DNA of 64,000 nucleotides. Origin: Ceratodon purpureus. Lineage: Eukaryota; Streptophyta; Bryopsida; Pseudoditrichales; Ditrichaceae. Numbering within the stretch: the stretch's first letter is position 1; every line of letters starts with the position of its first letter. Below the pieces are notes generated by a model that was not told the DNA's origin, did no database searches, and saw only the letters and a list, made by a program, of their open reading frames with translations. Where the stretch lies: contig CM026425.1 in the NCBI GenBank assembly GCA_014871385.1, positions 2,393,684 through 2,457,683 on the forward strand, in the 5' to 3' direction. This document shows, in pieces, positions 20,032 through 34,687 of the stretch. The position numbers and the translations under genes were made by a program.

Positions 20032-20330
20032 GGAGAACGCTAAATGCCCCGTAGGAAAGGATAGGGCGGGACGGCGCGCCTTGGCGTCCACCGTGGACTG
20101 CCACCGTGGAGGGCCCCGTTTTCCCCGCGTCACGGCTCCCGAGTAACTCCGCGTCCCGGTAACTCGAAACGCGCGTTACATTGTGACACCCGTCGACTAC
20201 AACGTGACACTAAACACTGGACATCGACGTGACACAAATTTTTTTAACTGACCGTGACCCACAGAAGATGACGTCACGCCACGTCATTCGTCTTCCACCT
20301 CCCATTAGCGACTGTCGACTAGGGTTTCCA
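20032..20330 (+). repeat. Left terminal inverted repeat of the MULE
   Basis: 299 bp, GC-rich compared with the flanks, matching the right arm with one mismatch by eye. It contains three GTGACAC motifs (20183, 20204 and 20229) within 53 bp, plausible transposase or accessory-protein sites. The inner edge ends at an AGGGTTTCCA telo-box-like sequence, so the arm may include promoter elements. Confidence 0.93.
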
Positions 20331-20611
20331 TTAGGGTTCCAGTGTTATGGTTGCCGGGTTTACATTGTTCTGTGTTCTTTCGGGTGTGCATGTAATCGAT
20401 TCAGTTTTGGAACCACGTTTCCGCGTGTGTGTTCGTTGCGTGCTCATCGCGTAGGAGCGCATATTGACTGGAAACCTTGAATGTCAGTTGCGATTTGTAG
20501 TGTTTCTGTTTTGTTAAATTATTTGAGATCATTTGTGTAGGAAGAGATCGTCTGTTCTGTGTGAAGGTAGAAGTTGCTTGGCGTATTCGGTGACTCAACG
20601 TGATTGCGATT

Positions 20612-23600
20612 ATGGAGAGGGTGGATCTAAAGAGTACGTTCTACCCTACTGCCAATGTCAAAGTCGATGACTTCGAGGTAGATGTTGATGCTTACGATCT
20701 TCAGAAGCTTCAAGTGCAGGCCATCGAGGAACGGGTTCAAAATCCACCCCCGGGTATCTTCGGTCCAAGCGATTTGAGGTGGGATCTGGAGTATCGTCCG
20801 CCCAGGGGTGAGCACAAGAAGTCGCATACTGTCCAGCAATGTTTCGTGCCTACAAGTCGTGTTCATGACTTCATAGAGGGAATGCAGTGCGGTCGAGAGG
20901 GAGCGCAATGCAGATTCCGACCCACGAAGGAGAATCGACGTCCCAATCAAAGCCGAGATGGGCAGAAGACTGCCCTTGACTTCACCCGGTAAGTTAGGTA
21001 CTGTCACAGTGTATTGTTTTGCGAGTGCATTTTCCATTACTGTGCACTCTAGGGTTTACGGGTTTTGATGGAACATTCAAATTCTACAGCTACAGATGCG
21101 AGTATGGGCCGAAGGATTTTTCTCACATTGTGAAGCCAATTACCGAGGACTTACTGCCCAAACCAAAGAAGAAGAAACGTCCACCTGATTGCGTCCCCGA
21201 AGGCAACTCCATTGCGCCCACACGTAAAGCACGAGCAAGGAGAGTTAAAAATCCAGAGGGGAGGAAACCGCCACGCAGGTTTAAGTCCAAAACTCTTGGA
21301 TGTGGTGTGGACGCGATGGATTGGATGTTGTCTGGTGCCCCTGCATTGCCCAAGAAGAGACGAGGTAGGAAATCCAAAGGAGATGGAGCGGAGGAGAATT
21401 CAAGTGGAGACATAGTCCAGTCAGATGCGCCATTGCAGATTCCAGATCTGAATGAGATCCCTGATACTGAAGAAATTAACGCAACACCTCCTCCGACAGT
21501 GCGGAAAAGAGGACCTCGAAAGAAGAAAGAGGCTGACCCTGCTGTGCAGTCCAGTGTCACCACTGACACGGCAGCATAGAAGCCCCCTAGAAGGAGGGCT
21601 GGGAAGGCGAAGGCGACTGCGGTAGAGGTGCAATTGTCCTCCACGGCCTCTGGATGCCCCGTTACAGGTGCCCTATCCTCTGATCCGGGTTCAGTCGTTG
21701 ATCCAGTGATTCCTAAGAAACGTGCTCCAAGGAAGTACGTACCTAGGAAGAAGAAGGGATCAACCCCTCCCAAGCATCAGTGTCACAATGGCGTGGAGGT
21801 GAGAATTGGAGGGCGTGAAGGGGAGGTCGTACAAGCTGGTGTCGAAGACCACGAATTCGTGGGAAGTAACTCAGTGCAATCGGCAAATGTGCCTATGGCA
21901 GAAGACCATCCCAGTGTCACAGACTGTCTTACTCCACTCCTGTCTGCGCTGTGTGTCCACGGTGATGATGTGTGCTCACAGCTGAATGTACCTGGGATAC
22001 CAGATAGGGAGAATAGCGAACCGATTCTAGGAGGGCAGCTTGGGGATATATCGATGTTGGTGAAGCAAGCCGAAGCGGAGTTGGAGAAGAAAGATTCTGG
22101 TCGTCAGAAAATAAAGAGAGACTCAAAAAAGAAGTGGGGGGGGTCGATAAAACGGGGATGTTTGGCTCAGTTCACTGTGAAGAGTCTTCTTCATGCGCCA
22201 CATGTGTCGGAGATATGCATACTCCAAGGGAAGCATGTGAACCGAGACGGGTTGGTTGTGCACGGCGGGATGAAATCAGGGGATAGGAGCGCTTTCTCAG
22301 CCCATTTGTCGCCGGAAATTTGGACATTTGTGGAGGAATGCCTGCGTCGAAAGGACTCTTCAAATCAGATTATGAAGAAGCATCTGGATATGTTGAAACA
22401 ATACCAGGCGGAGGGGAGGGATATAACACGGGATCTCCTGCTTACGACTAAAGACATTCGCAATATATCGGGAAAACTGGCTCATGAAACTTACATGTTA
22501 CACAAAAACGACGCGCAGAGTGTTCGAATGTGGGTTCAGAAAAATCCCAATAAGGTCTTTTACTATACGGAATCTAATAAGGAGAAACCGGTGCCTGTGC
22601 CAGGGGAACTCACAGGGACAAATATGCCATTCACAATTGGGATACAGACGGACTGGCAAAAGAAGATGATGTTAAAACATGGCCATCGTGGAGGAATTTC
22701 AGTCGACGCCACGTTCGGAACGAATGAGAAGAAGGTACTAACTATCTAAACGTGATGAACTCATTATGTTGTATCAGGCTGTAACACTGGTCGTTTCAGC
22801 TGTTGTTAACCCGTGACACTGACTTCATCGCCCTGGTTCTGGCATGTTGCAGTTTCCATTGTACACGCTCATGGTTTTTGACGAATGGCATAATGGCATT
22901 CCCGTAGCCTTCATTTTGACATCGAGGTGCGCCAAAGTCGATCTTACACCATGGATGAGAGCTTTAAATGCAAGAATGGTCGCTGAACAACCTGACTGGA
23001 AACCTGAAGCCTTTATTGTGGATTGTGCCCAAGGAGAAATAAATGCTATAAAGTGAGATTTCATACCCCATACCCGATATTTTATAAATTGTATTCATAG
23101 TATATGTGACACTGGATTTATTTATTGAGTGTCACAGTGTCACCGTAGTGTCATATATATATGTATGTATACGATATTGACATCAGTGTTACAATGTTAC
23201 TTATATTGAGTCCAATTACTTCTACAGTGAGACGTGGCCCAATACTGCCATATTCCTTTGCTTGTGGCACGTTCGGAGGGCCTGGCAGAAAAACTCATGT
23301 TACAAGATTGCTGACATCGGGGTACGAGCTGCGATCATGAAGGAGCTTGGTGAGATAATGTACGACCGGTCTTCACCACCCGGTGCAGAGGGGAAAGATT
23401 GGGCTAAAAAAAAACTAGAGGAGCTGGAGAAAAAATATCCAAAGGAAAACGAGTTCTGGGCATATATGAAAGAACAATGGCTAGAGAAAGTGCACATGTG
23501 GGTGGTCGGTTTTAGGAATTTGAATTATTGCGGCCAGGATACAAATGCAGCCATTGAAGGGTACCACGGCTTTGCGAAGTCGATATTGAAGTCTGAACGG

Positions 23601-24404
23601 AGTAGGATGACGGGAAGAAGAGTGGATTGGTGCATTACTGCTTTGACAGAGGATGTTGTTGACCATTACTGGTACAAGGATCTCCGAAAGGAAAAGGGTT
23701 TCGTTGACAACAAAAAGATGCAGGATACCGTCGTAGACTCCATTTTGAAGGCCAGAAACATCCCTGACACGGACGTGACACTGCCAGCGCATGAAGGTGA
23801 CACTGCGATGGTCACGTCTACGTCGCATCCACACATGCGGTACACTGTGTATAACCCGGGATCTGAGTGGGGTGTTTGTAATTGTATTTGGGCACAACAA
23901 GGGAACATGTGCAAACATCATGTAAAGGTGGTTATGATGATGAACCCCGACATAGCCGAGGGAACGATTGCGCGATACTGTGGGAGAATGGCTGGTAATG
24001 CTAATGGAGGTTTAGGGCAATTACTAACACCAAGTAGAGCCCAGAATAAGGTACCAGCTGAGGTGTATACCCCTTTAGGGGATCACACGTCGGTACCTCA
24101 AACACCAGTTACTACTCCAATGAGGGGCCGTGTTATTGATCTTCAAGATACGCTGCGACAGCAGTTTATTCATCTCCATGAATTAGTCGATGAGGATTCT
24201 TTCCTACAGGAACACTTAGTCGCGGAGCTAAATCAAACACTTGGTCGACTACGGAGACTAAAAGTGGAGAAGAGGGAGGGGACACTACATCCACTGGCTG
24301 GATCTCCTATGTTTGAGACCGTAGACGACGGAATGGGATTCAAGCTTCGTCGACGGAAGGACTTCCTGGAACGGGGCGGACCCTCGGTGGCACGTCGTCT
24401 TTAG
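20612..24404 (+). pseudogene. MULE transposase with SWIM zinc finger, interrupted by one in-frame TAG
   Basis: Exons are 20612-20988, 21090-22734, 22853-23052 and 23228-24404; all GT-AG and phase-consistent, 1133 codons. The MULE transposase core has D665 (VDATFGTNEKK), D731 (IVDCAQGEINAI) and E851 (TNAAIEGYHGFAK), which fit the DDE triad. LCLWHVRRAWQKN and the block around DEWHNGIPVAFIL are family hallmarks, created only after splicing. A SWIM finger follows (C958, C960, C969, H971). The N-terminal part has basic Lys/Arg/Pro-rich segments (KRGPRKKK, KPPRRRAGK) that may bind DNA. Codon 289 (21577-21579) is TAG with the same frame open on both sides. Either this copy is disabled, the stop is read through or spliced out, or it is a sequencing error. 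The start is the ATG giving MERVDLKS. Confidence 0.85.
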
Positions 24405-24671
24405 GTAAAGTTTGTCTTCAAATGCTCTGAACGGGACAGAATCCATCCAGAACGTTGCGTCACCGTCACTCTTCGTCACTGTGACACTGTTCAGTAAGTG
24501 CTCACTGATATGGCCTTCAATCCAGTCGATGTGGTTCTCTTTTTGTTTTCCACCTTCGTGTACGTCCTCGGGATTTTGTTGGGTGGCAGACATGATTCGC
24601 ATAGGGTTGGTCGTCCACTGTGACATAATGGATCTTCTGGTTTTTGGTCTAGGGTTAGTATTACTATCTTA

Positions 24672-24810
24672 AAGGTCATATTCATTAAAATGGCCACTCC
24701 CGATTATATTGGCCGCCACACTATTCAAATAAGGAGAGAAAATGAACTGAAATCACACTATTTGAGCAGCCAATATAATCAGGATTGGCCATTTTAATGA
24801 ATATGACCTT
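24672..24810. mobile_element. Foldback MITE nested in the MULE (139 bp)
   Basis: Two arms of about 45 bp, the left starting AAGGTCATATTCATTAAAAT, are inverted copies with a few mismatches and are separated by about 50 bp. The transcript would form one long hairpin. It lies just downstream of the transposase stop codon. I found no clear target duplication. Confidence 0.75.
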
Positions 24811-24911
24811 CTTATCTTTGGAAGAGGAGAGATATCAGCTGTGGCGGGATAGAAAGTCATGAAGGGGGCGTCGGTCATGCACAGTCATTGGAGGGTTGCG
24901 GCTGTCAAGCA

Positions 24912-25151
24912 ATGGCGCGTACTGGAGGCCCATGGAAGAAGAGGAAGCAACGGAGGGACCGTTCTGATGGAGCAGTCCGCAGTGGCAGAACAGACACCAA
25001 TCGTGGACGTTTTTTTTTCAAACGAGCGCAATCGGGGTGTGAAGATACCATGGCGGAAGACGGGGTGGAAGCGGATTGGGTTATGAGGCAGTTCTACTCC
25101 GGACTCGGCGAGAATGAATGGGACAACCTGAGCAATTACAGTGCTAAGTAG
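24912..25151 (+). CDS. Small basic open frame inside the MULE (79 aa)
   Basis: MARTGGPWKKRKQRR gives a nuclear-localisation-like N terminus. An acidic, aromatic C terminus (WVMRQFYSGLGENEWDNLSN) follows. It is on the same strand as the transposase and about 500 bp beyond its stop. No known domain is recognised and it could be one exon of something longer. A third small gene is known in some VANDAL MULEs, but I see no sequence basis to equate them. Confidence 0.35.
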   Translation: MARTGGPWKKRKQRRDRSDGAVRSGRTDTNRGRFFFKRAQSGCEDTMAEDGVEADWVMRQFYSGLGENEWDNLSNYSAK

Positions 25152-27104
25152 CGTATTCTAGTTTCACATAGAAATTCTTAGCTTCACTTGATCCCGCAAT
25201 GTATCTTATCTGACAATGTCAGTGAATGCATATGAATTTAAATGTCCTTGACACGGTTTGCTTGAATCCTGTGACACTGTCATCTTATGTGTAATGATGT
25301 CTTATTGACTCAGTGTCGATTTATGTGTTAAGTACATGACATCCGAGTCTATATACTCACATCATAAGCTGGGATTCAACTGAAGTTTGAAAGATGTCAC
25401 AAACTCTCTTTAATATTGCATACGTAAAGATGGTCGCCCATTTTCCGCGAAGAAATACCTCATAGAGTCCATGTGAAGATGTAAAGAAAAATCTATTTGC
25501 ACGGGAGAGGGAAATAATTTGCCCTTATCTGTACAAGTACTCGTGAGTACTTGTGTTTCTTGAAATTGAAAGGTGAAAGCATATGAATCAAACCCTTTTC
25601 TATTTAGCATTTACTTGAATATCTTAAGTGTTATACGTTTGTATTATAGCCAAGATCTATTTAATGGTCCTTGATTATCTAAATATCATTTAAGTAAGGA
25701 ATAATTAACAAGGGCAATTTCCATAATATACCCTTCAATGTACTCCTTAATTGTACCTGAGATATCCCGAGTGTAACAAAATGAGGATACATGTTTTATG
25801 ACTAAGCGTATTATTCTATGATGATTATAAATTGAAGCATTCAGGAATATTGTATCCTACGAAACATATAACTCGAATTGGATGTTAAATTCCAACTTAT
25901 GTTTTTATTTTATTTTTTATTTTTTTGGGATTATAGAAGTAGTTAATTCCAAACATTGTTACTATTGGATATGTGTATAGGTATAAATAAATTTATCTAT
26001 ACACTTACCTTTAATTTGTATATATTTCCCCTCTAAGTCCGAGGACTGTAAACATAATAATAACATGAAGATATTACTAGTTAGCGGAAAAAAAAAATGA
26101 TATATAAGATTTAGAGAACTCCTAAAAGAATATGCATATAAATTTACACGTCCTATGGACTAATAAATAATAGAGTAATGTGTTTAGAAGTGAAATTAAG
26201 AATTACAATTAAATAAAAATACTACGAAAATAAGGTCGTCCAATAGCAAGCTGTTTTGCATTGTATGCAATGTGATTGTTAAACTACATCACAAATCATC
26301 ACTAAATTACCATTTACATATAAATATTTAAGTTGAAGAATTTTTAATTTTTTTTAAAATACATATAATGTAATATCCTAATGTAAAATAAATCGTTCAA
26401 ACGGGTACGGTGAAATTTACATATCATGTACCCTACTGTGAATATAAAATCAGTTACGTTTCCATGAAGTCAATATTCAATGCAAAATGACAATTAAGAC
26501 ATTGATAGTTTATCGAAACTAGTTCATTATAAGATATGAAGGACATTATTCGGAACATATACGCTTACGACTCAGAATGTAAGGAAAAATAATTAAATTA
26601 TATATTAGATGTTAAAATATATGACCATGATAGAAACGACTTGAGAATTAATACTATAAGAAAGTATTTAAAAAAAAAAAAAACGTGTCATAGACCACTA
26701 AGTTAGTATACACAATACTTAAGAAATAGTGAAATTGGAAAAACCGATGTACAATGCAAAATAGGAAGCAACAATTTCATGACTGCTCATATAAGTCAGC
26801 TCAAACAAAGGAAGAAGTAGTCCCTTTCCTCTTTTTATTCTCCCGTCGTGACCAATCAGCAGATACACAATTTTCCCACTCAATGTCACAATGTCACAAT
26901 GTATGACGTGCTGGCTAGTGTCACAGTCTTAAGGGTATCACTATCTTAACATGATTATCCGAAACTTACTTGGGAGAGGAGTTGCTCGGTCCTCTCACCC
27001 GTCTTATTCTATTATTTCTACTCGCATACCTAGATTCCCACTTTACAACACACTAAAATGTACGTATTGATACTTACAGCGAATTGCCTACATGTCCATA
27101 ACTG
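25152..27104. other. AT-rich noncoding interior of the MULE
   Basis: A strongly AT-rich stretch of nearly 2 kb without coding signal. It separates the two gene modules. A cluster of the element motif lies at its right edge (about 26883-26930: two TGTCACAATG copies and one AGTGTCACAG). Confidence 0.5.
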
Positions 27105-27494
27105 TCAACTATTGTGAGTACAGGATACCACCGACGTGCATCCACATTCCGTACCCTTGGTGTCTTGTTTGGGTTTCTTCCACCTCGACTGGCCTTGTAG
27201 GAGTGTCACATAAGTAGCCTTCGGCTTCACTCCCTTGAACTGCTCACACTCCGGGAAGAGAACGACCCTCTTCCTTTCAGAAGCCTTCGACTGAACAACA
27301 AGGGGCACTGCCCTCTTCTGCTTCAAGTGAGCGTGCCCTAACGACAACAGTGGAGGATATATCCGATCATTTTGAAGGGGCACAATGCTCTTTTTGAAAG
27401 ACGGAATAGATGGAGGCGTTTCACGCACAGGTAGGTCGACAAAGTCGGCCATTGTGGCTAAGAACTCCAGAACTTCTGATTCTAGCCCATCCAT
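27105..27494 (-). CDS. Unrecognised 129-aa open frame inside the MULE
   Basis: The frame begins MDGLESEVLEFLATMADFVDL, continues with a Pro/Lys-rich middle and ends with a Cys-containing tail (TECGCTSVVSC). No family is recognised. The telo-box pair and TATA-like AT stretch at about 27659-27700 lie upstream in the correct orientation for a minus-strand promoter. It may be an independent small gene or the first exon of a longer one. Confidence 0.4.
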   Translation of the reverse strand: MDGLESEVLEFLATMADFVDLPVRETPPSIPSFKKSIVPLQNDRIYPPLLSLGHAHLKQKRAVPLVVQSKASERKRVVLFPECEQFKGVKPKATYVTLLQGQSRWKKPKQDTKGTECGCTSVVSCTHNS

Positions 27495-27658
27495 CTCTCT
27501 AGGAACCTAACTAATTCTGTCGTGGATAACAGCCTATGACATGGGAAATAAAAGATTCAAGAGAGGGTCCAAAGCGGGGACGGTAGTTCTTATATACAAT
27601 CAGCGTGAGATGATGTTATGAGTACTCTCCACGTTCTACTGCTATGGGAACTTCTTTA

Positions 27659-27682
27659 CGCCTAAAACCCTAAACCCTAAAC
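27659..27682 (-). promoter_or_regulatory. Telo-box pair upstream of the 129-aa frame
   Basis: Adjacent copies of AAACCCTA, the plant telo-box, followed by an ATATATA stretch. Telo-boxes are common in plant promoters of growth-related genes. The same motif resembles a short interstitial telomere repeat. Confidence 0.4.
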
Positions 27683-28347
27683 CATATATACTTGTATCGA
27701 ACTATTGTTGTACGGCTTTTATGTAAATGTTCAGTGTCTAACCCTTCCGAGTAAAATAAGAGGTTGTTCCGAACTCTATATAAGAGTCAATTAAGTTATA
27801 CATTTTTTGTAATTCAAGCTAGTTGGGAATTTCACACAGTAAATTAAACCGTTTCACAGAATTGAATGTTCCGATACCGAGCGAAACCGAGGCAGGGATC
27901 TCAATACCGCTCTTGCACTGCATCTAATCATCGATGTCTTTAAAGACGGTAAGCTTACATAGTGTATGGCAACTACAACATCAACCATTAACCATTCAAG
28001 CATCGTATACAGAAGAACTTGCATGTACGAAGTAGTGTAATCAGTAATTTTAATTAAATGTTCGGAGTTCAGTGTAGCAGCATCTCATTCTACGACCACT
28101 GCTCCTATGTCGGCGGTCCAAGCATGAAAGTACCTACTCACTTCTTCTGTGGAACAGAGAACGGTGCCCTGAATCTAGTGTCACGTCTGTCATTGTCTAA
28201 TTCCCTAGCTAAAAGACACAGGACTTCCATGTTTGTCTTTTTCGGTTTGAAAGGGGCCAGCAACGCAGTCTTCATCAATGCTTCTCTCCTGGTTGATGTC
28301 CACGCTCGGAGCTACTTAACATTTTACCACAAAGTGAGGTCAGGAAA

Positions 28348-31155
28348 CTAATAAACACTATTCACAACAGTAAATAAGACTATATGGACAGAAACTGTAA
28401 TACAGAGTTCTGAGGTTGTCACCTTCAAGTACAGCATTGTATTCTTTATTGTATGGTGACCGCATTCGTATTGCCCCGATTGGAGGAGCACTTCTAGAAT
28501 CACAACGGGCACATCATATGGTTCCACTCCACGTAAGGTCTGCCACGCTCGGGAAATCCACTGAACAAAAGCTGAATGGTCCTTTTCCGGCTTATGATAT
28601 TTTCCCGACTTTGATGAATCCAGGTGAACAACTTTGTCGTACTGGAAAACCAAAAGTGACCACTGGTCATGGGCCACCCACGGAACAAGAATCTCCTTCA
28701 CCTGATGAACCTTGATAGGAGGAGGTGGTTTCAGAAACTTCGTTGCCCACTTCAGCAAACCTTCATGGTCCGAGAGAGAACACCTAAATGTCGAACTAAT
28801 CCGGGAGAGAGTAAACATTATCTCGTGTCTATAGCAAGAAGGGTACTGAAAATAAAGCCGGGACATGACAAAATCGACAATGTCATTTCCTAGTCGAGTC
28901 CTTACACGTTTCAGATCTCTTATCGCCTGGAACTTCACTTCGAGCTCCTTCTGCTTCTCACTGAAGAAGATGACTTCAACCGCACCGTCCTTCTTCCCCT
29001 GACGTCCCGGTAAGGTCTGCAAGAAGTCCTCGATGTGTAAGTAATTATAAGCCTCAGCCAATGTCATGAGAGCAACATCATCAACTCGCACCATAGCACA
29101 ACTCGGCCAAGGAGCTGCTGCCATGACATTGGAGACCTCATTGTCCTCAACACTTTCTGCCTCCTCATCAATCTCCTTACTTTTTTTTCCAGACCGCTGA
29201 GATAAGTTCACGAGTTCCGCGGCAGTAACCTCCAGATCGTCCTCCTCGTCGAAATTAGCCCTTAGATTCCTACATGCCGAGTCTTTCTCCACACATGTTA
29301 CCTCTTCGCCGCTGTTGCCAGGTACTATGGATACGCCCTTGTAAGGTGTGCGCATGTTTGCTTCGGGGTGGCCCTTCACCCATTGGTGAAAGCTTGGATC
29401 CTGCGAAAAGGTGGTCTCTTCCACGACCATGTCCTCTCCTGCATGAGCAGTGTTGTGGAACTGACTGAGTGTCAAAAGTGGGGTTACAACCGACGGCGAA
29501 TGGTCCTCTTCTAAGATGTCGCGGATTTCAGGAAACACTGTGGGGACAGAATTCGCTTGAGTACCCTCCAGCAAAGGTACGACAGTGCTGTATTGTAGTG
29601 TCATAGTTGCCTCAGAACCTCTGTCCCTAGATGGATCGACCAAGTCTGGGACTTCTTGGACTCCAGTCGTCGTCTCCATCGACCGCAGGCCATCATTTGA
29701 ATGTGAGTCTCCCCCCACAGCGTTAGTGACATTGATATCAGCTTTGATATTCAAATCATTAGTAACATTGACATCGTCTGTGACACAGATAGTCTCGGCA
29801 CTGTCAGTGTCACCGGAAGGTGCCGGAACTGATTTCGAAACCACCGGAGAATGGACGGTGACACTGGCCTCTGTCTCCCCAGCTCGAATATCAGAGGTAT
29901 TCGAAACCTTGTTTGTGACGCTGTCGCTGTGGTCAACTGGCAACGCGACCGAAGGAGTCGTGACACTGCACCCGAGTTTGACTACATTTGTGTCGGATGG
30001 AACTAGGTCTTCAACCTCGACATTGTGACACTGGGTTGGGAGTGGGGGTTTACTGCTTGAGAAATGACCCGCCTCCACGTCTGTCACGTTCTTCTGAGCA
30101 CCTGCTCCAACATGGTCAAGGATATTATCGCTCTCCTCGTCTAGGACATTAGCCTCACACCCGGGCACAGTCTGCTTCAAGTCTTCAGTGTCTGTGACAC
30201 TACAGAGGGATGTCTTTAGATCTACGTAACCCGTGACACTGAGTGGATGCTCCTTCGAGCCTTCTATGACCGTGGCATTTGTATCACCTTCCCTTCTGTT
30301 CTCCAGTACAGGCGTAGGGCTCAGATTCTGAATATCGGACTCAACTCTACAGTCTTCCACACCACCTTCTACCATAGGCACCAAATGAACTTCAACCATG
30401 TCGGGCGAAGAAACTGCACCCTTCCGCAAGCTCTGGTCATCTTCCACTGCAACCGTGTGAGTAAACTCTTTTGAACACACTGCCCAATAGGCAGCGTCCT
30501 CCCTTTTCAATGTCCCGTGGATATCGTTGACACTCTCCTGAATCCTAAGCCTCGAAGCGGCCACTCCGGGATTCCAGTTGGGAGTGTGCAGAGTCGGGAC
30601 CCAGCCGACGTCATGCTCCTCCCGTGTGCGTAGGATCCAATCCCAAGTCTTCACATGCTCCTTCCAGTGGTCGTATGAAGGATTTCCCCACACTGTGTTG
30701 AATTCCATAGCATTGCAGACTGCCAGGTCCTGTAAGGCCCTCATTCTAACCCTAGCCACCCACCCGAGCACGCTCTGAACTAAGTCCTCGCCTTCCCCGG
30801 AGTTTATCCTTTCTACTTCACCTAGAACCTTTGCTCGCAACGTTTCTCCCAGCCCAAAGGGAATTCCGGAATAAGTATACATCCCTTCCATCATGAAGAT
30901 CGACAATGCTCGATGGATGTTCATTACTAAAGTGCACTCATTTCTGATAATACTGTCCGTTAACCCGTACAGAGGACAAGTCAATAATCTGTACGGCCCG
31001 TACAGACATTTGAAGAGAACTCTGAACACGTACAGAAGAGGTGTCGGGGGTAATCCTTCCATACGATGATCGCACAGGAACCTCCTGACTTGCTTTGCCT
31101 CCATGGCTGCATCACAGAATGGGGTAACAGTCATTGTCAACCATGAGGAAAACAA
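28348..31155 (-). CDS. Accessory gene, 3' part: GLT-type domain, low-complexity linker and Ulp1-like C48 protease
   Basis: A 935-codon open frame, probably the continuation of the exons at 34196-31239. The conserved start of the exon is near 31083 (MEAKQVRRFLCDH). Next comes CPLYGLTDSIIRN with a hydrophobic helical region, then about 500 residues of Val/Thr/Ser/Asp-rich linker. The C-terminal fifth is a Ulp1/SUMO-protease fold: GNDIVDFVMSRL (entry helix), AHDQWSLLVF (catalytic His), HLDSSKSG (Asp), LLQSGQYECGHHTIKNT (Gln and catalytic Cys). All H-D-Q-C residues are present, so activity is possible. The real exon probably ends at the GTGACA donor after MLYLK, with the last exon further downstream. 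Ulp1-like genes in plant MULEs may act on SUMO pathways or only as DNA-binding anti-silencers. Confidence 0.8.
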   Translation of the reverse strand: MFSSWLTMTVTPFCDAAMEAKQVRRFLCDHRMEGLPPTPLLYVFRVLFKCLYGPYRLLTCPLYGLTDSIIRNECTLVMNIHRALSIFMMEGMYTYSGIPFGLGETLRAKVLGEVERINSGEGEDLVQSVLGWVARVRMRALQDLAVCNAMEFNTVWGNPSYDHWKEHVKTWDWILRTREEHDVGWVPTLHTPNWNPGVAASRLRIQESVNDIHGTLKREDAAYWAVCSKEFTHTVAVEDDQSLRKGAVSSPDMVEVHLVPMVEGGVEDCRVESDIQNLSPTPVLENRREGDTNATVIEGSKEHPLSVTGYVDLKTSLCSVTDTEDLKQTVPGCEANVLDEESDNILDHVGAGAQKNVTDVEAGHFSSSKPPLPTQCHNVEVEDLVPSDTNVVKLGCSVTTPSVALPVDHSDSVTNKVSNTSDIRAGETEASVTVHSPVVSKSVPAPSGDTDSAETICVTDDVNVTNDLNIKADINVTNAVGGDSHSNDGLRSMETTTGVQEVPDLVDPSRDRGSEATMTLQYSTVVPLLEGTQANSVPTVFPEIRDILEEDHSPSVVTPLLTLSQFHNTAHAGEDMVVEETTFSQDPSFHQWVKGHPEANMRTPYKGVSIVPGNSGEEVTCVEKDSACRNLRANFDEEDDLEVTAAELVNLSQRSGKKSKEIDEEAESVEDNEVSNVMAAAPWPSCAMVRVDDVALMTLAEAYNYLHIEDFLQTLPGRQGKKDGAVEVIFFSEKQKELEVKFQAIRDLKRVRTRLGNDIVDFVMSRLYFQYPSCYRHEIMFTLSRISSTFRCSLSDHEGLLKWATKFLKPPPPIKVHQVKEILVPWVAHDQWSLLVFQYDKVVHLDSSKSGKYHKPEKDHSAFVQWISRAWQTLRGVEPYDVPVVILEVLLQSGQYECGHHTIKNTMLYLKVTTSELCITVSVHIVLFTVVNSVY

Positions 31156-31238
31156 TTTAGAATGCTACTAAACCCTATCTATTTCAGTCCGTTTTAAATG
31201 AATCCGCCTTCTCAAGAAGTCGCAGTACTGAAATAACA

Positions 31239-34196
31239 CTATGCTCGAGTCATAGAGCAGGGATTATCATCATGTCGCCAAGGTAAGGCAGGCAATTTGC
31301 TTAGGAGGTCGAGGTTTGATGATAAAATGCGCCAGAGTGGGGACCAGTCCCATTGCACCTCTTCGTATAGACGGCCGTTCTTCTCCCGGAACTGAAACGT
31401 AGCCATAGCTGCTCTCTTAATCTCGGCGTCACGAAGTTCCAATCTATACGCATCTAAAGCCGCCTGATAGCGATCGAAATCGATTCTCCACTGGACATAT
31501 TCTCCTAAAGGGCGAAGATCTCCATACGGAACCCCATCCTCAACACTAAGTACAAGGGCTTCCATTGCAAGTGACACTGCCTCAATTACTGTACCAGGCA
31601 ACGGAGTTCTCTTATCCCCCTACATAACCAAAAACGGCTGTAATTAGTACTGTAATGCAAACACATGCAGAAAACTAGAATAGTGCAACAAATAGTTGCC
31701 ACAGTAGGTGGTTCTGAGACACTAACCTTTTTAGCCATCCACCAATACGACAGGCGCATGAGGTTGTCTCTGAATTCGGATTTGTTGATGTCTTCATTCC
31801 ATCTGTTCACGAATTCTTCACCACTGTCACAGTCCCAAATCCAGGGCAGTGTCACCTCAGATGAAATCTCCCTGAGATGATACAACCCGGGCATTGGTGG
31901 TTCTTCGGGGCACACAGGTGGCGGCGGATGGCGTACAACAGAGTCAGATTCCCTGCAGTGCTTGACGACGTGGTCTTTCTCTAATTCGGTAAGCAAGTCT
32001 CGCCTGGCCTGGAAGTTCTCGAACGCCCTGGGGTGGAACGTAAATGGTCCAGGGCACCCCTTCCCATCCGCCCAGTACTGTTGGAGCTCGGTGACACTGC
32101 TGAAGTCGTCGTCCCAAACCTTCATACTCCGTAGTTCTTCCTCAGGGGCCATCGGTGACACTAAATCGTATGGCTGAGAGGGACTATCAGGGACAGGGGG
32201 ATCGTCTCCCACATTCAGCCCACTGTGACACTGCAGACATTCATCTACGACGTTACAGGACGTATGCCCGGTAACATCTATGTCCCGAACCTCTCCACCT
32301 ATAGACTCTGTAATGTTACCTTCACTATAGATGTGACCTACAGAATGATTAATCCGTACAGTACCAATTGTAGGGCGTCTTAAACCAAACAGAGACCCCT
32401 TTGCACCATCTCTATATCTTACAGTGAACCTATCACGTAACATATCAATGGCTACTTGTTTGTCACTTACCTCCGTCTCAGCTGACTCCCTCGCATTTTG
32501 GTTTTTCAGTGGCTTCCCCTTCTTGCGAGAGTGTTTGGGCTGCTTCTTCTCCTCTGACTTTCGCTTCAGAGATTCTCTAATAGTAGGACCGCGTGTCTGA
32601 ATGGGGACCTCCTCATCTGGCGACATTTCAACCTGCGCATTAGTGTCACAACACATTACAGACGTGCCACCTTCGAAGTCCTTGCGCCCTAAAACATTCT
32701 CATTCTCCTTCATCCTAGTCTCCTGCGCTGGGGCCGTTCTTGGTGACATTAACCTCTGTACAGCGCCCATTTGAAGGCCCATGTTTGACCTCTTCTCTCC
32801 CCCGAAATCCGTCGTATTTCTACCCACATCTCCAGTGTCACAGATGTCGCCCAGCGCACTACCTCCTTCTGCCACAGGGTGAGCATTATCCTCAATCTTT
32901 GATTTCGGTGAATCACGAGGATCCGCTGTCGCACTCTTCCTAGGGCTCTTCGAAGGAGACGCCGCTGCATTGGCTTCCTTTTTTTTACCTTTCCTTGAAC
33001 CTGCAACGACCCTAACCCCTTGCCTTGCCTTGCACATAAGGTCTGGCGCAGGAGGAATCTTCTCGATCACACCTCGATTCGCACCACCTTCCTGTCCACC
33101 CTCCACAGAACCTCCATCTCCACCTACTGCCGTCTGCCCTCCTCCATTCGCTGCGCGTTGTTGACCGCCCAAGGGTATACTCTTCGACAGTGGTGACGCC
33201 TTGCCCATCACCTCCACGCGCTTCCCTTCTCCAGGTTTAAAATCAGGGTACGGGAGCAACAATGCTATACTCCCGTCCGGATACCTCGCACTTTGACAAC
33301 CGTCGATGTAACGGTGACGATTCAGCATCATCTTATTGCTGAATTCGTTCTTCCCGCAATGAATACACACAAAGAACTTACGCGCCCCACCTTCCTTGAC
33401 CCTCCCTTTACACATTGTCGCAAATTCCCTTCTTAATTCCTCTACCCTGTCCAGACTCGGATACTTCACATCATAAGCATATTGGTAAATGACCACCCTT
33501 AGTGTCACCGGCTCAGTCGCCATGTCGGATGCCTTGTAAATCCCTGTCCGAGCACCGCACTTTGCACACCCTGAAGGAAAGAAACAAATGAACCTAAACC
33601 TATTAACTACCCCAATAACACTCCCGCAACCGCCTCGGCATGGCACGTGATTATAAAACCAGTCCTTCTCCTCGAATTGAACGTCGTCCCTGGCAGTAAC
33701 CCTAAGTGAGCATTCGGAGGTTTACAACCAAAAAAAAAAAAACGCGACCATATATGTACTTTCAAAGATAAAACTGCATCAGCATAAGAGGTACTCCCAC
33801 ATACCATCACCATATCATCTACCCTAGATAATAACCCGCGAAGAGTAGACTACTGGAAGCAGATAACATCAAACACGAAGAGCAAGAGAAAGAAGACACT
33901 TAACCCTAAAAATTACATAGGTTTCTCACCTCGGTATGCTCCAGAATGAAAACTCGGCGCTGGACGACGTCTCCACGGAGCTTCTGCACGTAACACGCAT
34001 ATCAGAGATGTAGACTGTTGATGATTCCATTACGATATTCAGCAATGCAGAGTGAAGGAAAACACGAAATTGGTGATTGAAGAAACCAACAAAACTTACC
34101 TCCATAGCGACGCTGTCCGCAGAGGAGCTCCTTCCCCAACATGAAGGCGCTGCTCTCCCGCCACACCAAAGATGTCATCTCCACGGCCCCGGGCAT
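31239..34196 (-). CDS. Accessory gene, 5' part: zinc-finger-like motif and unrecognised domain
   Basis: Phase-consistent exons on the minus strand: 34196-34100, 33983-33930, 33570-31727 and 31619 to about 31239. The N terminus is MPGAVEMTSLVWRESS. CAKCGARTG follows, then MATEPVTLRVVIYQYAYD. A C2HC-like finger is next (FVCIHCGKNEFSNK, MLNRHRYIDGC), followed by about 350 residues of basic Ser/Pro/Lys-rich linker and a PPMPGLYHLRE block. The last exon has PLPGTVIEAVSLAMEAL and a charged helix. The same blocks in the same order occur in the second element at 59.8-62.2 kb, so this is a real family. I could not find a clean GT-AG intron joining the last exon to the 31155-28348 frame. The second element has these parts contiguous, so a frameshift or an odd splice site is likely. 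Confidence 0.75.
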
Positions 34197-34388
34197 AATG
34201 ATGGCGCAATAATGCGCTCTTTCCAATTCGTGCTGAAATGACAAAGCACACCAACTCGAGTGTAATCGATAAATCCCTAAAACCCTACAAGCTAAGAGGG
34301 AAATAACTACAAATCCATAACTCCCAATGCTAAGAAAATCGCACTTCCTCAATGACAGTGCTACCGCAACGTCGAATCCACGAAACAC

Positions 34389-34687
34389 TGGAAACCCTAG
34401 TCGACAGTCGCTAATGGGAGGTGGAAGACGAATGACGTGGCATGACGTCATCTTCTGTGGGTCACGGTCAGTTAAAAAAATTTGTGTCACGTCGATGTCC
34501 AGTGTTTAGTGTCACGTTGTAGTCGACGGGTGTCACAATGTAACGCGCGTTTCGAGTTACCGGGACGCGGAGTTACTCGGGAGCCGTGACGCGGGGAAAA
34601 CGGGGCCCTCCACGGTGGCAGTCCACGGTGGACGCCAAGGCGCGCCGTCCCGCCCTATCCTTTCCTACGGGGCATTTAGCGTTCTCC
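34389..34687 (-). repeat. Right terminal inverted repeat of the MULE
   Basis: Reverse complement of the left arm, 299 bp, one mismatch seen. It holds three GTGTCAC motifs mirroring those of the left arm. The first coding exon of the accessory gene begins about 190 bp inside it, so this arm probably drives that gene. Confidence 0.93.

Follow-up and report, generated by a model that had tools for sequence, protein, structure and literature searches.

Why would one short word recur alike in the exons, the introns and the ends of a transposon? The question is raised by a window of 64,000 nucleotides (the whole stretch of DNA that was analysed) from the moss Ceratodon purpureus, which holds a complete copy of a Mutator-like element (MULE) studded with GTGACAC and its reverse complement GTGTCAC. 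The excess had been noticed in an earlier reading made from the letters alone (here the sequence-only reading), which suggested selection for DNA binding and a system similar to that of the VANC proteins of Arabidopsis VANDAL elements. In our analysis, the extended word GTGACACTR is almost certainly a DNA-level binding site. Whether it is also a self-tag, read by an element-encoded protein that protects the element from silencing, is a proposal for which we judge the chances to be about evenly balanced.

The motif and its distribution in the window element

MULEs are recognised by terminal inverted repeats (TIRs) and a target-site duplication (TSD) of about 9 bp. The two TIRs of the window element aligned at 298 of 299 positions (99.7%) and GAATTTGGG flanks both ends, which confirmed the boundaries given in the sequence-only reading. 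By its TIRs and TSD, together with the MULE domain match and the DDE and SWIM motifs described below, the element is a MULE. It carries a transposase gene on the forward strand and an accessory gene on the reverse strand, together with a short third coding block, the gene models being approximate and derived from open frames and conservation against a more distant family. This family is referred to as B, the window copy as A, and two further complete elements as A4 and C; all genome searches cover the 362-Mb assembly of 151 contigs.

The element contains exactly the 35 copies that had been estimated by eye (19 GTGACAC and 16 GTGTCAC), while the chance expectation, formerly put at about 2, is 2.93 under a second-order Markov (Markov-2) model for both orientations, and the remaining 49.3 kb of the window holds 10 copies instead of about 9. 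The eighth base is T in 30 of the 35, as the proposed extension of the motif implied, and the ninth is G in 21 and A in 10, from which the consensus GTGACACTR was taken. Thus the 8-mer GTGACACT occurs 30 times in the element (0.77 expected, Markov-2) and twice in the other 49.3 kb, and the 9-mer GTGACACTG 20 times (0.20 expected) and not at all in the rest of the window. The k-mer enrichment check suggested earlier gave the same picture, since the commonest 8-mer of any kind with at least three letters reached at most 9 copies in 200 elements simulated under the Markov-2 model. An origin by composition or chance was rejected by these expectations and simulations. Poly-A/T words also exceed expectation in the element, yet they are equally or more frequent in the rest of the window.

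According to the gene models, exons contain 21 of the 30 GTGACACT, introns 4, intergenic parts 3 and the TIRs 2, and all the kinds of location listed in the sequence-only reading were confirmed. Exonic copies number 5 in the transposase gene, which also holds the 4 intronic ones, and 15 in the accessory gene. The spacing is clumped relative to uniform (8 gaps shorter than 30 bp, 2.4 expected), four of these eight gaps being within the two TIRs. Flanking sequences differ among the copies in A, and one-mismatch relatives of the 9-mer are scarce there: the 27 possible neighbours together account for 18, of which 10 differ at position 9. A decayed ancestral repeat is disfavoured in A by this shortage of near-miss words.

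Selection on DNA rather than on protein

When codons in the open frames of A were shuffled synonymously, a mean of 1.55 copies remained (maximum 6 in 500 shuffles), while 20 were observed. The same excess was found in A4 (16 against 1.80), in C (13 against 1.46) and in B3, a complete element of family B (9 against 1.60). Coding copies use five of the six reading registers in A, the unused one reading TGA, and likewise five in A4, five in C and four in B3. A repeated peptide was rejected on the five registers in A, and an RNA-level motif is disfavoured since the strands are balanced. Synonymous third positions were kept more often inside motifs than elsewhere between A and C (29 of 37 against 55% of 1699, P 0.003), between A and B (15 of 23 against 38% of 1157, P 0.007) and between A and A4 (39 of 39 against 92% of 2173, P 0.04). 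Fourfold sites alone gave a weaker signal (P 0.04, 0.05 and 0.14 for A/C, A/B and A/A4, respectively).

Conservation in close relatives

Conservation of motif positions among relatives had been set beforehand as the test of the idea. The genome was searched for the TIR, with 40 of 91 candidate places scored, and the complete elements A4 and C were compared with the window copy. The number of unchanged motifs to be expected was estimated from the local neighbourhood, and gapped sites were scored as not conserved, so that all 30, 29 and 28 motifs of A, A4 and C were counted. At 92.5% identity, A4 keeps 24 of 30 motif 8-mers unchanged against 16.3 expected (P 0.003), and 24 of 29 against 15.7 in the opposite direction (P 0.001). 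For C, where identity over the aligned columns is 67.5%, 14 of 30 stay intact when 2.33 would be expected to (P 1.5e-9), and 14 of 28 against 2.24 starting from C (P 8.6e-10); from A4 to C the figure is 15 of 29 against 2.23. Restricting A/C to BLAST high-scoring segment pairs, which contain 17 of the 30 motifs, left 10 of 17 against 1.91 (P 2.3e-6). The copy number is therefore steady (30, 29 and 28) despite turnover of individual sites.

Column by column, identity in A/C and A4/C is 0.71-0.90 over the eight motif columns, 0.54-0.75 at the ninth base and mostly 0.4-0.7 outside. The motif columns thus appear as an evolutionary footprint of about 8 bp, in which alignment single flank columns also match the motif level (0.89 at -12 from C to A, 0.79 at -12 from C to A4, 0.77 at -2 from A to C). 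Among 8-mers with at least 6 copies, a few with 6 copies exceed the motif in conserved fraction, namely CACTGTGA in A/C (0.50 against 0.47) and CCAGTGTC and ATTGTGAC in A/A4 (0.83 each against 0.80), and these rankings consist largely of shifted overlaps of the motif.

The same word in more distant families

An exact doubled 9-mer was found at 7 places in the genome and its reversed control at none. All 7 places adjoin a frame with an Ulp1 part that shows 57-59% protein identity to that of the window element, and the family transposase lies within 14 kb at 7 of 7; these places define family B. No match to the window was obtained by blastn with the 3-kb family B pieces, while blastn at higher sensitivity with the whole elements yielded 16 pieces at 64-83% identity, mostly exons plus 75 terminal bases. 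B3 is a complete 16.1-kb element with the TSD TAAGAAGCC, in which GTGACACT occurs 18 times (0.80 expected), five of them inside a tandem array. Family B therefore has the same word as A plus a tandem array of it, and overlapping pairs at 8-bp spacing occur in both A and B3.

The A/B comparison used same-strand, best non-overlapping coding blocks only, and the inverted third gene is for this reason absent from the set. Fourteen of the 20 coding motifs (those in the open-frame set or the last exon) fall inside the blocks, and 4 of these 14 are unchanged against 0.43 expected, one of the four sitting at the start of a weak block. Outside motifs, fourfold sites of B and the window copy are 29% identical, near the level of unrelated codons, from which it follows that the word outlived near-saturation. 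A 7-kb piece of another family (L056, transposase 71%) contains 8 GTGACAC, all 8 of them GTGACACT, where 0.23 was expected. The identical word is thus present in four groups: A with A4, C, B and the family of L056.

Specificity across the genome

In 30 fetched element ends, 93 GTGACACT were counted in 56.4 kb inside and 1 in 45.0 kb outside, and each of the 30 has at least one inside. The flanks of family B gave 0 in 19.3 kb, and the left flank of B2, which is outside that set, has one. The word is considered to be under DNA-level selection because of this contrast at the ends, the synonymous-shuffle test and the conservation in relatives, and the corresponding claim of the sequence-only reading, that selection acts on DNA and not on coding, held.

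Across the assembly, 5508 copies of GTGACACTG were counted, compared with 2741 of the reversed word. Among the first 100 places in the list, 57 fall in five clusters and 35 are singletons. Two of the five clusters (C1:1326848 and C1:6394300) contain a scored transposase, the search with a transposase exon having given 818 first-look candidate places, of which 108 were scored.

Two other dense clusters, C1:6016971-6020044 (8 copies) and C1:6031496-6040854 (17 copies), have no transposase among these 108 of 818, and they are possibly non-autonomous or more diverged members. The remaining cluster of the five lies at the contig end C1:2402-3933, where GTGACACTG is repeated five times at about 381-bp spacing, apparently in a satellite sharing the word.

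Genes of the element

The coordinates of all features are given in Table 1. The transposase matches PF10551, the MULE domain, weakly (E 0.0054, below Pfam's cut-off), and it has the motif SVDATFGTN, with the presumed first D of the DDE triad, and a SWIM finger CNC..CKH. Its relative P0042, one of 43 transposase hits, at 81% identity over 32% of the query, has PF10551 and comes from Ceratodon purpureus, in agreement with the earlier attribution to a non-seed plant. No relative was found in viral contigs searched with one transposase exon. An in-frame TAG at 21577-21579 separates two open segments of exon 2 while the TIRs are nearly identical nonetheless; it reflects either a nonsense mutation of recent origin or an intron missed by the gene model.

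The accessory gene encodes an N-terminal C2HC-like zinc finger and a C-terminal Ulp1/SENP-like domain. The latter has an Ulp1 fold in its predicted structure, which supports the earlier description of an Ulp1-like gene. His/Asp and Cys patterns are present in 7 of 7 copies of B; in C, His and Asp were matched and the Cys pattern was not found. A sequence search of the PDB with the Ulp1 exon gave nothing relevant, and DUF1985 was not found by sequence profile in the accessory open reading frames (E<=1), in two pieces (E<=10) or in 10 relatives (E<=1). The third coding block has no Pfam match, and its orientation relative to its neighbours is opposite in family B.

Table 1 Features of the window element and complete relatives (window positions unless a contig is named)
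Feature	Position	Strand	Remarks
Complete MULE copy	20032..34687	.	9-bp TSD GAATTTGGG immediately flanking both ends
Left TIR, 299 bp	20032..20330	+	GTGACAC at 20183, 20204, 20229
Right TIR	34389..34687	-	GTGTCAC at 34484, 34509, 34530
Span of 35 scattered GTGACAC/GTGTCAC copies	20183..34536	.	30 GTGACACT; 20 GTGACACTG
Transposase gene	20612..24401	+	Approximate exons 20612-20987, 21052-22746, 22853-23053, 23217-24401
Transposase intron	23054..23216	+	3 GTGACACT in 163 bp, two overlapping at 8-bp spacing
Third conserved coding block	27093..27506	-	59% amino acid identity to family B; one GTGACACT
Accessory gene	28153..33523	-	Approximate exons 33523-31726, 31619-31254, 31155-28420, 28296-28153
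Ulp1/SENP-like cysteine-protease fold (predicted)	28420..29121	-	Asp and Cys sites present, His site is Gln
Conserved N-terminal domain, about 109 aa	33195..33523	-	Finger CIHCG-x12-H-x5-C; candidate DNA-binding part
Complete element A4	C6:43152052-43165969		
Complete element C (L054+L055)	C5:1078486-1092390		

Proposed function of the tag and alternative explanations

We infer strongly from these sequence patterns that the word is bound by a protein, and with moderate confidence that this protein is encoded by the element; the further step, in which the accessory protein does the binding and so counteracts silencing, is a weaker suggestion. In the mechanism that we favour, the tag would be maintained at one to two per kb across TIRs, introns, intergenic parts and exons on either strand, and an element-encoded protein would coat the DNA of its own element while leaving most of the host genome bare. 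The activity recruited in this way would keep the chromatin of the element in an open state despite host silencing, much as VANC acts on VANDAL. The accessory protein would be the likeliest carrier, its N-terminal zinc finger reading the tag and its Ulp1-fold part removing the small ubiquitin-like modifier (SUMO), or a modifier of that kind, from the silencing factors that the element meets along its length. SUMO is suggested as the target because the effector has an Ulp1 fold, and SUMO is reported to be tied to transcriptional silencing in Arabidopsis via MOM1 and PIAL2 (PMC6084981). This SUMO-protease route is put forward tentatively and seems to us rather doubtful. Equally doubtful is the whole picture, in which an old moss superfamily would spread a fixed 8-bp label, exons included, and a label-reading protein of SUMO-protease fold would strip the silencing machinery from the element itself only.

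Several points weigh against the favoured mechanism. In a review, the Ulp1-like proteins of Arabidopsis MULEs are deemed unlikely to act on SUMO (PMC6117577). The structure model of the zinc-finger domain is poor (predicted local distance difference test, pLDDT, 54), and DNA binding by this finger is a guess for that reason; the model of the Ulp1 domain is middling (mean pLDDT 56). The presumed catalytic His, which precedes Trp in 8 of 8 database relatives, in C and in 7 of 7 copies of B, is replaced by Gln in the window copy, whose own protease may therefore be dead; in A4 both the His/Asp and the Cys pattern were without a match. The SWIM finger of the transposase offers another candidate binder. 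The word is also less sharp in B3, with 40 one-mismatch neighbours against 15 exact 9-mers, many of them held in the array, and polymorphism in family B (B2 excluded as identical to B1) is not clearly lower at motifs, with 3 of 79 against 216 of 6698, a comparison of little power. The 30 element ends are related and include the window's own, hence they are not independent. Finally, VANDAL motifs diverge fast, those of the VANC21 and VANC6 targets being different, while the word here is constant across families.

The foremost competitor, although an unlikely one, is a reading of the tag by the transposase, as maize TnpA reads its subterminal motif. The transposase would use the site for transposition, synapsis, the control of copy number or a demethylation of its own, and the accessory protein would have some other role. 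Each TIR contains three GTGACAC, as first noticed in the sequence-only reading, five of the six TIR copies of A4 are full GTGACACT, and a GTGACA trio stands inverted near both ends of B3, where five of six are GTGACAC. Besides having the SWIM finger, the transposase is better conserved between A and B, its three largest blocks being 76-87% identical in protein, above every accessory block. However, binding to TIRs calls for sites at the ends and not for about 30 copies across exons and introns, and only one of the three TIR copies per end is full GTGACACT in the window copy. That a host DNA-binding protein reads the word, whether to activate or to repress (as a zinc-finger silencer would), with the copies kept as enhancers or because they cannot be lost, appears improbable. 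The 9-mer does stand single elsewhere in the genome, as at the 35 singletons above, but a site for a repressor should be lost and not maintained, an enhancer need not pervade the exons of both genes, and few GTGACACT are seen outside elements (1 in 45.0 kb, 2 in 49.3 kb and 0 in 19.3 kb of the B flanks).

More improbable again is molecular drive, in which the word would promote its own spread as a signal for recombination, conversion or repair, after the fashion of bacterial DNA-uptake sequences. A dense word on both strands, compatible with coding and sharp in A with few near-misses, would fit such a process, whereas its excess is tied to this superfamily. Conversion driven by a word is not known to us from plant transposons, which we counted against this explanation, no search for it having been made. 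Least credible is a neutral origin, whether as the residue of an old tandem repeat, as a recurring peptide or through base composition. A genuine tandem array exists in family B and overlapping pairs at 8-bp spacing occur in A and B3, yet in A the flanks of the motifs differ, five registers are used, decayed neighbours are few, synonymous shuffling abolishes the excess, and the motif is conserved above its flanks.

Relation to known systems

The known system that, in our view, comes closest to the logic of such an element-encoded tag reader is sequence-specific anti-silencing by VANC. Like VANDAL21 with VANC21 in Arabidopsis, the window element is a MULE with a transposase and accessory genes (Hosaka et al. 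2017, PMC5735166; Sasaki et al. 2023, PMC10398659), and as there a short motif, of 9 bp in VANDAL21, is repeated in the element and forms tandem arrays, here in family B. The VANDAL21 motif given in the sequence-only reading agrees with the published YAGTATTAY (PMC5735166, PMC10398659), from which the reverse complement of the present consensus, YAGTGTCAC, is two transitions apart; the AC-type motif of VANC6, AGTTGTAC, also fits AGTNNNAC. The chance of such a resemblance to VANC21 is about 1-3% by a rough hand estimate, and it was noticed post hoc. Unlike here, where 21 of 30 GTGACACT are exonic, the reported VANC21 sites are non-coding and motif-less exon probes (n=2) were bound poorly, and the TIRs described for VANDAL are degenerate in place of 299 bp at 99.7% identity. 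Nor does the accessory protein match DUF1985, having instead a zinc finger and a predicted Ulp1 fold. Because of the exonic location, the long TIRs, the lack of a DUF1985 match and the slow motif evolution, the window element works at most like the VANC system and is not a VANDAL. The earlier proposal of a VANC-like system is a reasonable analogy, with agreement in the dispersed short motif and the tandem arrays of B, and differences in exonic sites, TIR length, DUF1985 and the constant word.

Kaonashi (KI) MULEs likewise bear an Ulp1-like (peptidase C48) gene (Hoen et al. 2006, via PMC6117577). Their expansion is ascribed to transduplication in Arabidopsis and SUMO activity is thought unlikely, and the available part of that account mentions no dispersed motif (PMC6117577). 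Our literature search gave no account of such a self-tag system in a moss. Maize TnpA reads a subterminal motif, with its sites in terminal regions. Spm/En TnpA and MuDR MURA resemble the proposed system in that a protein of the element acts on its own terminal DNA and is tied to hypomethylation, unlike which the motif here spans the whole element, exons included. The DNA uptake sequences of Neisseria and Haemophilus are also short sharp words, dense, on both strands and inside genes; they are alike in distribution only, the organism and the process being different. MURA is reported to induce hypomethylation of TIRs (PMC10398659).

If the proposal is true, sequence-addressed self-recognition by transposons would extend beyond Arabidopsis and its kin to a moss. 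Its form there would impose a constraint on protein-coding sequence and would have remained the same while divergence came close to saturation. A function would also be offered for many Ulp1-like genes of plant MULEs: a sequence-addressed deSUMOylase would be a counter-defence of the transposon. The link between SUMO and transposon silencing would be directly testable, and the word would provide a short address for steering chromatin effectors. Mechanism aside, the conservation of binding-site-like words in exons of two transposon genes that are unrelated to each other is a clear example of constraint on DNA overlapping with constraint on protein.

Additional observations

More than half of the 108 transposase places that were scored are on the 110.5-Mb contig C6 (about 30% of the assembly), which may be a sex chromosome, judging by the size of the Ceratodon V. 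A telobox-like word, AACCCTA, is also in excess in the window element (13 against 1.2 expected) and in element C (11 against 1.2).

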